NCBI GenBank assembly: GCA_017397765.1
Contig: JAFQIB010000020.1
Location: 1-58,428, forward strand
Reading direction: 5' to 3'
DNA length: 58,428 bases
Origin: Clostridia bacterium
Lineage (GTDB): Bacteria > Bacillota > Clostridia > Christensenellales > Aristaeellaceae
Position numbers and translations under genes: made by a program. Within the stretch, counting starts at the first letter, position 1; each line of letters begins with the position of its first letter. This document shows positions 52,940 through 58,175 of this stretch, one piece after another. The notes beneath the pieces were generated by a model that saw nothing but the letters and a program-made list of their open reading frames with translations, had not been told where the DNA came from and ran no database searches.

Positions 52940-53015
52940 GCACCTTTAGCTCAGTTGGTAGAGCACCTGACTCTTAATCAGGGTGTCCAGGGTTCGAGTC
53001 CCTGAAGGTGTACCA
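52940..53015 (+). tRNA. tRNA-Lys (anticodon CTT), copy 1
   Basis: Cloverleaf: acceptor GCACCTT / AAGGTGT (first pair G-U), D-arm GCTCAGTTGGTAGAGC, anticodon arm CTGA-CTCTTAA-TCAG with anticodon CTT, T-arm CAGGG-TTCGAGT-CCCTG, discriminator A and encoded CCA. 76 bases. Confidence 0.97.
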
Positions 53016-53034
53016 TAGGTCCGGATCTTCATAT

Positions 53035-53110
53035 GCACCTTTAGCTCAGTTGGTAGAGCACCTGACTCTTAATCAGGGTGTCCAGGGTTCGAGTCCCTGA
53101 AGGTGTACCA
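53035..53110 (+). tRNA. tRNA-Lys (anticodon CTT), copy 2
   Basis: Identical in sequence to copy 1, including the encoded CCA. The spacer of 19 bases before it (TAGGTCCGGATCTTC-) resembles the next spacer, indicating tandem duplication of a unit of about 95 bases. Confidence 0.97.
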
Positions 53111-53128
53111 TAGATCCGGATCTCCTAT

Positions 53129-53201
53129 GCACCTTTAGCTCAGTTGGTAGAGCACCTGACTCTTAATCAGGGTGTCCAGGGTTCGAGTCCCTGAAGGTGT
53201 A
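53129..53201 (+). tRNA. tRNA-Lys (anticodon CTT), copy 3, without encoded CCA
   Basis: Identical to the other two through the discriminator A but followed by CGAA instead of CCA, so a CCA-adding enzyme would be needed. It is directly followed by the terminator of the cluster. Confidence 0.95.
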
Positions 53202-53206
53202 CGAAG

Positions 53207-56224: not shown

Positions 56225-56929
56225 ATGGAAGAGCGAATGGACTATCCCGAGCTGAATCCCGAAGCGGAGCTGGAAGCGGCTGCCGCTGCGCTTGAAATGC
56301 CGGAAACGCCGGACGCCTATCAGGAGATGGCGGACGAGGATGTGGTGGCGCTGTGCCGCACGGGCGACACGGTGGCGGTGGAGTATCTGCTGAACAAGTA
56401 CAAGAACTTTGTGCGCTCCAAGGCACGCAGCTATTTCCTCATCGGCGCGGATCATGAGGATATCGTGCAGGAGGGGATGATCGGCCTGTACAAGGCCATC
56501 CGCGATTTCCGGCCGGAAAAGCTCAGCTCCTTCCGCGCTTTTGCGGAATTGTGCATCACCCGGCAGATCATCACGGCCATCAAGACGGCCACCCGGCAGA
56601 AGCATATCCCGCTCAACAGCTATGTGTCCCTCAATAAGCCTTTGTACGACGAGGAGAGCGACAGGACGCTGCTGGACGTATGCGCCGAAGGGCACAGCGC
56701 CAATCCCGAGGAGCTGCTGATCTCCCAGGAGGATCTGCGCGGCATTCATCAGAAGATCGACGAGGTGCTTTCCGGGCTGGAGCAGGAAGTGCTGGCCGCC
56801 TATCTGGACGGGAAAAGCTATCAGGAGATTGCAGATATGCTGGGCCGGCATGTCAAGTCCATCGACAATGCGCTGCAGCGCGTCAAGCGCAAGCTGGAAA
56901 AATATCTGGAGGATACCCGGGACGATTGA
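56225..56929 (+). CDS. sigH: RNA polymerase sporulation sigma factor SigH
   Basis: A 234-residue sigma factor. Region 2 is complete (VEYLLNKYKNFVRSKARSYF; GADHEDIVQEGMIGLYKAIR; DFRPEKLSSFRAFAELCITR), as is region 4 (LSGLEQEVLAAYLDGKSYQE; IADMLGRHVKSIDNALQRVK). It directs early sporulation and stationary-phase transcription. An N-terminal extension of about 30 acidic residues precedes the usual start. The ribosome binding site is weak. Position after rae1 confirms the identity. Confidence 0.95.
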   Translation: MEERMDYPELNPEAELEAAAAALEMPETPDAYQEMADEDVVALCRTGDTVAVEYLLNKYKNFVRSKARSYFLIGADHEDIVQEGMIGLYKAIRDFRPEKLSSFRAFAELCITRQIITAIKTATRQKHIPLNSYVSLNKPLYDEESDRTLLDVCAEGHSANPEELLISQEDLRGIHQKIDEVLSGLEQEVLAAYLDGKSYQEIADMLGRHVKSIDNALQRVKRKLEKYLEDTRDD

Positions 56930-56953: not shown

Positions 56954-56982
56954 TTGAAAATCAGCTGCGGAAGGTGTATCAT
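56954..56982 (+). promoter_or_regulatory. aroF promoter
   Basis: TTGAAA, 17-base spacer and TATCAT. Transcription would begin near 56989, giving a leader of about 180 bases before aroF. Confidence 0.75.
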
Positions 56983-57015
56983 GAGCATAGTTCAAATAAG
57001 GGGAGGAAGCGCAGC

Positions 57016-57075
57016 ATGCTGACCGTTCTGTACGGGAAGGTCTATTACGCACTGTATATGCACTGCAGGGCGTGA
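57016..57075 (+). CDS. aroF leader peptide (Tyr-rich)
   Basis: A 19-codon ORF, MLTVLYGKVYYALYMHCRA, with GGGGAGG ten bases upstream. Four of its codons are Tyr (positions 6, 10, 11 and 14), far above expectation. Its last codons and stop lie on the 5' arm of an antiterminator stem. It sits between the aroF promoter and a terminator. This is the layout of a translation-coupled attenuator: ribosomes starved for tyrosyl-tRNA would stall on the Tyr codons. Confidence 0.75.
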   Translation: MLTVLYGKVYYALYMHCRA

Positions 57076-57136
57076 TTTTCTGCGCATGGACTCCATGACC
57101 GCCCTGCAAGGCCATTCCGGCCGGCGGGGCGTTTTT
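57064..57136 (+). promoter_or_regulatory. Attenuator: antiterminator and terminator before aroF
   Basis: Antiterminator: TGCAGGGCG (57064-57072, overlapping the leader stop) pairs with CGCCCTGCA (57100-57108), 9 bp perfect. Terminator: CGCCC (57100-57104) pairs with GGGCG (57127-57131), with GGCC/GGCC inside, followed by TTTTT (57132-57136). Both use CGCCC, so they exclude each other. A ribosome at the stop codon covers TGCAGGGCG and permits termination; a ribosome stalled upstream at Tyr codons leaves it free and allows readthrough into aroF. Confidence 0.75.
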
Positions 57137-57170
57137 GTATGCAGAACCAAGTAGACGGAGGGAAATCGCT

Positions 57171-58175
57171 ATGATCGTTATTCTCAAACATCAGGCAAAG
57201 CAGGAACAGATCGACAAGCTGAAAGTGTTTCTGACCAATCTGGGCCTTCGCATTGATGAATCCCGGGGCGATCATTCCACGATCCTGGGCCTGGTTGGCG
57301 ATACCACCCGGGTGGATGCGGATCTTATTGCATCGCTGGATGCGGTGGAGGCGGTTCGCCGGGTTCAGGAACCCTATAAGAAGGCCAACCGCAAGTTTCA
57401 TCCTGAGGATTCTGTGATCGACTGCTCCGGCGTTCCTGTGGGCGGCGGGTTGTTCCAGATCATTGCCGGCCCTTGCTCGGTGGAGACGGAGGAGCAGATC
57501 ATTACCGTAGCCAAAGCGGTCAAGGAGGCCGGCGCAACGCTGCTGCGCGGCGGCGCCTTCAAGCCGCGCACGTCCCCCTATGCCTTCCAGGGCCTCCATG
57601 GAGACGGGCTGCGCTTGCTCAAGCTGGCCAAGCAGGAGACAGGGCTGCCTATCGTGACGGAGATCATGGATGCGGCCCATCTGGATCTGTTTGAGGATGT
57701 GGATGTGATCCAGGTCGGTGCGCGCAACATGCAGAACTTTGAGCTGCTGAAGGTGCTGGGCCGGACGGACAAACCCATCCTGCTCAAGCGCGGACTGGCC
57801 AATACCATCCAGGAATGGCTGATGTCGGCAGAGTATATCATGGCCGGCGGCAATGACAAGGTGATCCTGTGCGAGCGCGGCATCCGTACCTATGAGACGG
57901 CGACCCGCAATACCCTGGATCTGTCCAGTGTGCCGGTGCTCAAGGAGAAAACGCATCTGCCGGTGCTGATCGATCCCAGCCATGCCACCGGCGTGGCGAA
58001 GCTGGTCAAGCCCATGGCCATGGCAGCGACTGCCTGCGGGGCTGACGGCCTGATGATCGAGGTGCACAATGATCCCAAGAACGCTCTGTGTGATGGCGCG
58101 CAGTCGCTGACACCGGAACAGTTTGCCGATGTGGTGCGCCGCGTGAAGATCATCCGGGATGTTGTGCAGGGATAA
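57171..58175 (+). CDS. aroF: 3-deoxy-7-phosphoheptulonate synthase (DAHP synthase)
   Basis: A 334-residue type I-beta DAHP synthase, the first enzyme of aromatic amino-acid synthesis (phosphoenolpyruvate plus erythrose-4-phosphate). Residues 1-65 are a ferredoxin-like regulatory domain ([20 protein letters not shown]) as in Thermotoga, which usually confers feedback inhibition by Tyr or Phe. The barrel contains [47 protein letters not shown] and [14 protein letters not shown] 57171 has GGAGGG upstream; an earlier in-frame ATG lies in the attenuator. It is transcribed alone in this window behind a Tyr-rich attenuator. Confidence 0.96.

Follow-up and report, generated by a model that had tools for sequence, protein, structure and literature searches.

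A candidate tyrosine-reading leader-peptide attenuator before a DAHP synthase gene of Clostridia, and a phenylalanine-richer counterpart before its sister isozyme

The DAHP synthase gene aroF1 of a Clostridia bacterium of the family Aristaeellaceae is preceded by a short leader which, judged from sequence and fold modelling, is very probably a trp-type, ribosome-mediated transcription attenuator reading tyrosine. Its parts and their mutual exclusion can be read directly from the window, i.e., the whole 58,428-nucleotide stretch of contig JAFQIB010000020.1 that we analysed. The mechanism is known already from trp and from C. glutamicum aroR-aroF, and has been predicted in Acholeplasma; what appears to be new is the breadth of aroF leaders in Clostridia, the Phe-richer sister switch of aroF2, and the split between Tyr and Phe codons. 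A first-pass annotation of this DNA had proposed a Tyr-codon attenuator for aroF; the present analysis adds a blocking 1:2 hairpin, a pairing of the leader Shine-Dalgarno (SD) sequence with a complementary segment (SD/anti-SD), the aroF2 sister switch and the wide occurrence.

Organization of the aroF1 leader

The switch region lies on the forward strand between the sigH gene (56225-56929) and aroF1 (57171-58175). The latter encodes a 3-deoxy-7-phosphoheptulonate synthase of 334 aa, which scores above the cut-offs of NF006421 and TIGR01361 and aligns over its full length with 1rzm, 3pg9 and 4grs, which are enzymes of the Thermotoga type carrying a regulatory domain at the N-terminus. The first-pass annotation had placed a promoter before the leader, and a candidate sigma-70-type site, TTGAAA-17-TATCAT at 56954-56982, indeed matches the consensus at 10 of 12 positions; the call is a consensus match only, and with two promoter-like sites on both strands of 1.9 kb against a mean of 0.7 (sd 0.9) in shuffles it is a weak signal by itself. 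The 19-codon ORF with four Tyr codons and a good ribosome binding site claimed earlier was confirmed at 57016-57075: MLTVLYGKVYYALYMHCRA runs from the ATG at 57016 to the TGA at 57073-57075, its Tyr codons are codons 6, 10, 11 and 14 (57031, 57043, 57046 and 57055), and its SD region (57000-57014) forms a duplex of -11.2 kcal/mol. All four aromatic codons are Tyr and none is Phe.

Among the 958 ORFs of 10-30 aa with ATG or GTG starts on both strands of the whole window, 40 have an SD duplex of -8 or better, and a single one of these 40, the aroF1 leader, contains at least four Tyr. Counted as local density, the leader has 4 Tyr/Phe per 10 codons and stays under the bar of 5 applied in the wider survey below. 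On average, 15.5 of 108 shuffled aroF upstream regions reach this density, which is not rare by itself, so the case rests on comparison.

Past the Tyr codons, TGCAGGGCG (57064-57072) can pair with CGCCCTGCA (57100-57108) to give the antiterminator, whose fold over 57062-57108 reaches -19.8 (2/200 shuffles equally good). The latter strand, segment 3, is at the same time the 5' arm of a predicted intrinsic terminator hairpin at 57100-57131 formed with segment 4; the fold of 57098-57136 reaches -25.0 (z -3.8, 0/200 shuffles). The two mutually exclusive stems and the five T after the second one (57132-57136) were thus recovered as annotated. The sharing of CGCCC at 57100-57104 also holds, though the overlap is longer than these five bases and covers 57100-57107. 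The stop codon had been placed on the antiterminator 5' arm itself; instead it adjoins the arm, which ends at 57072, and falls inside the 1:2 hairpin described next. When 57060-57136 is folded whole, the terminator forms and the antiterminator does not (-34.9, z -2.15, 6/200), so the switch must be kinetic, with the order of synthesis favouring the antiterminator.

Two further pairings would keep the antiterminator from forming. Segment 1 (57044-57056), made of partial codons of Tyr10-Tyr11-Ala-Leu-Tyr, is predicted to fold with segment 2 (57064-57076), of which 57064-57072 is the stretch that alternatively pairs with segment 3; the fold model gives -12.4 kcal/mol for 57044-57076. This 1:2 hairpin contains Tyr codons, and its segment 2 side includes both the stop codon and the antiterminator arm. 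According to the model, it blocks the antiterminator when the leader is untranslated and thereby completes the trp-type set. The second pairing is likely, though less certain than the other parts: the leader SD region would pair with a complementary segment just past the stop codon, at 57080-57094 within the antiterminator loop, with -16.5 kcal/mol in the window (5.6% of loop shuffles equally good). Across 14 orthologues, cognate partners reach -16.1 against -13.7 kcal/mol for permuted ones, and 0/2000 permutations are equally good; within clades the figures are 92/2000 for clade A, which is weak, and 392/2000 for clade B, which shows no advantage. Ten of the 14 orthologues rank within the top 3% of loop shuffles, and one (L017) lies at 72%.

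Proposed switching

In the mechanism we propose, RNA polymerase would initiate near 56990 and a ribosome would then initiate on the leader ORF. With ample Tyr-tRNA, the ribosome at the stop codon would mask segment 2, to about 57085, leaving segments 3 and 4 to form the terminator, and the transcript would end at about 57136. With scarce Tyr-tRNA, the ribosome would stall at codons 10-11 (or 6) and open the 1:2 hairpin; 57064-57072 would remain free, segments 2 and 3 would pair first, and this pairing would preclude the terminator, so that aroF1 is transcribed. If no ribosome loads, the 1:2 hairpin and the SD/anti-SD pairing would occupy segment 2, making termination the default.

The placement of the codons was assessed with a ribosome model in which the ribosome edge lies 12 nt beyond the first A-site base and the remainder is folded up to the 3' arm. 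In all 14 orthologues the fold model has the antiterminator 5' arm covered when the ribosome is at the stop codon and free when it stalls at Tyr. Where a Tyr codon lies clear of the arm, the modelled antiterminator pairing is 0.75-1.0, the exception being an early single Tyr at codon 6 in L007 (0.29). It drops to 0.22-0.62 at a last Tyr codon overlapping the arm, which 11 of the 14 have, to 0 at the stop codon in 14/14, and to at most 0.07 without a ribosome in 14/14. These values suggest that the Tyr run is placed where stalling would work and that the modelled default is termination.

aroF1 leaders within the genus

Eighteen genomes of the genus (68-96% complete) were searched, and 17 carry an aroF1 of the window type. 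Of these 17 copies, 14 are preceded by a leader containing 3-5 Tyr and by the antiterminator and terminator arms, which bears out the expectation from the first-pass annotation that the Tyr-rich ORF would be conserved among orthologues. Leader and terminator are absent from the other three (L004 in G010, L005 in G006 and L010 in G016), and there the sigH-like gene ends within about 50 nt of the aroF1 start, as though the switch had been deleted.

Compensatory changes had been expected in both stems, and a preference for cognate partners was found in one. For the terminator, halves paired with their own partner reach -23.2 against -19.7 kcal/mol for swapped halves, with 0/2000 permutations equally good over the 14 orthologues (202/2000 within clade A, 10/2000 within clade B). 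The antiterminator arms are nearly invariant across the 14 orthologues and therefore show almost no covariation: cognate arms are equalled in 264/2000 permutations over all, 1646 in clade A and 27 in clade B, which gives neither compensatory proof of the pairing nor evidence against it.

aroF leaders beyond the genus

The wider set comprised 108 of 110 aroF loci, the genus included (L031 and L032 were dropped as duplicates). At 83 of the 108, an upstream ORF carries 5 or more Tyr/Phe within 10 codons, compared with a mean of 3.85 and a maximum of 7 in 20 rounds of shuffling and with 4 on the reverse strand. When 20 amino acid groups were compared, a large excess over shuffles appeared only with Tyr or Phe (3.76 for Tyr/Phe, at most 0.46 for the others). 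A terminator of -10 or better follows 85 of 91 looser candidate leaders (5, 4 and 8 in shuffled sequence); L007 is below the entry bar of this count, and its terminator was detected separately. An order-wide draw of genomes requested at 90% completeness yielded AroF in 85 of 151, and leader plus terminator were found at 56 of its 82 aroF copies, a count that has no shuffle control and leaves aside the copies gathered earlier and six fragments (G035:C51, two in G056, G059:C40, G078:C17 and one in G130).

When only the 5' arm of the terminator was taken as partner for the leader end, loci outside the genus showed no excess of pairing (8/75 vs 6/75 in the control). Since the pairing often extends into the terminator loop, the loop was added to the target; arm plus loop then gave 29/75 at p<0.05 and 14/75 at p<0.01 against 5 and 0 for a control of loop plus 3' arm, and this excess should be weighed with the fact that the target was picked after the arm-alone test had failed. 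The same kind of aroF leader was seen in bins assigned to Oligosphaeraceae, Treponema, a planctomycete and Thermoguttaceae (L042, L051, L084 and L094), which could reflect either transfer or wrong binning.

Two isozymes with different leader codes

The window's own genome carries a second aroF (G000:C5), followed by aroB; four Phe codons and a single Tyr codon occur in its leader, MLHSSYFAFTFPAAFATGSVDVT. Expression of aroF2-aroB would be under a Phe-richer switch of this same kind, and the two DAHP synthase isozymes would thus be induced by different shortages. Within the genus, a leader precedes 16 of 17 aroF2 copies, and a terminator comes after every one of these leaders; Phe outnumbers Tyr in 14 of the 16; the exceptions are L122 (4 Tyr, 3 Phe) and L124 (3 and 3). 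The Tyr share of Tyr plus Phe is 0.86 for aroF1 (0.60-1.0, n 14), 0.28 for aroF2 (0-0.57, n 16) and 0.47 for the other leaders (n 74). It is higher for aroF1 than for aroF2 in 14/14 genomes of the genus having both leaders; since these genomes are related, the 14 pairs amount to only one or a few events.

The split recurs in other genera, sharply in G054 (Tyr 4/Phe 0 vs Tyr 2/Phe 6) and less so in G081 (4/3 vs 2/6), where the 'Tyr' leader is mixed. Three genomes weaken the split or run counter to it: at the aroF1-side copy of G050 (L203) the best upstream ORF, which has a TTG start and a weak SD, contains Phe and zero Tyr; that of L190 in G125 is mixed (Tyr share 0.56); and G067 has a Tyr share of 0.5 and a leaderless second copy. 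In genomes with one fetched aroF copy, the leader Tyr share spans 0.2-1.0 and averages 0.50 (n 44). AroF trees were rooted at the midpoint, one with 89 rows, of which 55 lie outside aroF1/aroF2, and the other with 53 hand-picked rows. In the smaller tree, the Phe-coded copies of G050, G054, G081 and G101 group with aroF2, and a 100/99 split parts the aroF2 side from aroF1 and the Tyr-labelled copies of G054, G081 and G045, the last labelled from an inner ATG (4 Tyr, 1 Phe) where a longer TTG-start ORF gives 0.62. A birth of the duplication within the genus was considered and is unsupported, as aroF1 and aroF2 form separate well-supported branches with other genera on both. We lean slightly towards an old Clostridial pair of DAHP synthases whose leaders are mainly Tyr at aroF1 where both are present, mainly Phe at aroF2, and mixed at a lone aroF; the counter-cases and the relatedness of the 14 pairs keep our confidence at this level.

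The TrpE-N and TrpA models have no match in 17 of the 18 genus genomes (68-96% complete) and match only in G011, which suggests that Trp synthesis has been lost in the rest of the genus. With Trp synthesis seemingly lost, two aromatic products remain, for which two sensors would suffice.

Some further arrangements were seen around these genes. In five genomes (G050, G101, G070, G087 and G125) two aroF copies stand back to back with about 0.55 kb between them, and one copy of each pair has a Phe-rich leader; the other copy in G050 (L230) and G101 (L231) carries a common stretch, CAATATAATGTTCCTCCAGTA, ahead of a terminator-like hairpin. The leaderless second aroF copies of other families gave zero Rfam hits, and so no T-box. 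In the window's own genome, near-identical reading frames flank tyrA (L238, 16-399 and 1880-2230), perhaps a dispersed repeat.

Alternative readings

The same attenuator could instead sense a general aromatic shortage, of Phe plus Tyr, in the way expected of the mixed leaders found in many relatives. Such mixing prevails outside the genus, one or two Phe occur in 9 of the 14 aroF1 leaders within it, and the C. glutamicum AroR leader reads Phe-Tyr-Phe with a reported response to Phe and not Tyr, according to the available part of PMC11802643. We nevertheless regard this as unlikely for aroF1, given that the four aromatic codons of the window leader include no Phe and that the sister leader has four Phe and one Tyr. 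A nascent-peptide sensor, in which the peptide would make the ribosome stall or let go in response to free tyrosine instead of uncharged tRNA, is a good deal less probable still; TnaC is the comparison here. Most leaders of the genus do share a Y-A/V-L-Y ... C-R-A pattern, i.e., YALY or YVLY and CRA before the stop, but the codons of YALY/YVLY pair in the 1:2 hairpin, so that the recurring residues can be explained at least partly by the RNA, and peptides outside the genus, compared by eye, share little beyond richness in Tyr/Phe.

The least credible reading makes the ORF a bystander of a known RNA that senses tRNA or a ligand (T-box or riboswitch): the T-box model does match in 18/18 genus genomes (17 over the curated cut-off; 16 matches in the window's own genome), but a T-box (RF00230) or other known RNA upstream of aroF1 was rejected because Rfam at its gathering score finds only three tRNAs in the window, 20 further sources, leaderless copies included, gave no hit, and the Tyr/Phe richness of the leaders is far over that of shuffles. 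The window contains three head-to-tail tRNA-Lys(CTT) genes at 52940-53202, identical across the bases compared.

Relation to known systems

A trp-type attenuator reading tyrosine has familiar counterparts in the leader attenuators of the E. coli trp, pheA and his operons. With these the aroF1 leader shares a short ORF that follows an SD and in which cognate codons cluster, the 1:2, 2:3 and 3:4 segments, and a terminator before the first structural gene; unlike them, it carries Tyr codons before a DAHP synthase gene, and its SD is complementary to a segment past the stop codon. In E. coli, aroF is under TyrR, and isozyme-specific sensing is achieved by feedback inhibition together with TyrR.

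The nearest described case found, as far as the accessible parts of the sources go, is the C. glutamicum aroR-aroF attenuator, which was predicted in PMC4046766 and is reported to answer Phe, not Tyr (Neshat et al. 2014, cited in PMC11802643, where the trpL and pheL leader attenuators are also treated). By analogy, it appears to share with aroF1 an aromatic-codon leader before a DAHP synthase gene and transcription attenuation; it differs in belonging to an Actinobacterium and in its Phe-Tyr-Phe leader and Phe response. The motif uORFC-13-1, predicted upstream of aroF in Acholeplasma with 24 representatives (PMC8632094), likewise combines a predicted aromatic leader ORF and a terminator before aroF. 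In the excerpted description it differs in that at least one Phe codon is named, the representatives come only from Acholeplasma and unassigned environmental sequences, and neither a Tyr code nor a second isozyme is mentioned.

Classical attenuation in Gram-positive bacteria has been predicted or shown, in the portions of the reports at hand, for hisS/hisZ in bacilli (PMC2965389), for his operons of the Bacillus cereus group, Eubacteriales and Erysipelotrichales (PMC9413887) and for ilv-leu in Staphylococcus aureus (PMC5794164). These leaders resemble that of aroF1 in mechanism and differ in having His or Leu codons and other operons. In the parts of the surveys that could be consulted, classical attenuation was stated in 2010 to have been known only in Proteobacteria and Actinobacteria until bacilli were added (PMC2965389), and no Phe or Tyr attenuators were found in Actinobacteria (PMC1262725). 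Neither Clostridial aroF leaders nor a Tyr/Phe split between isozymes was recognised among the literature matches listed, which mostly leave subscription papers outside, and this silence is weak evidence of absence.

If the proposed attenuation is true, the leaders provide a readable rule for how these Clostridia control entry into the shikimate pathway, and classical attenuation would extend to a central gene of bacteria in which T-boxes abound. Isozyme-specific sensing would then be written in the leader codons, and the codon make-up of a leader would predict the amino acid answered by each isozyme. The pairs of aroF1 and aroF2 would also offer a natural experiment on how a leader code shifts where the gene has a sister isozyme.
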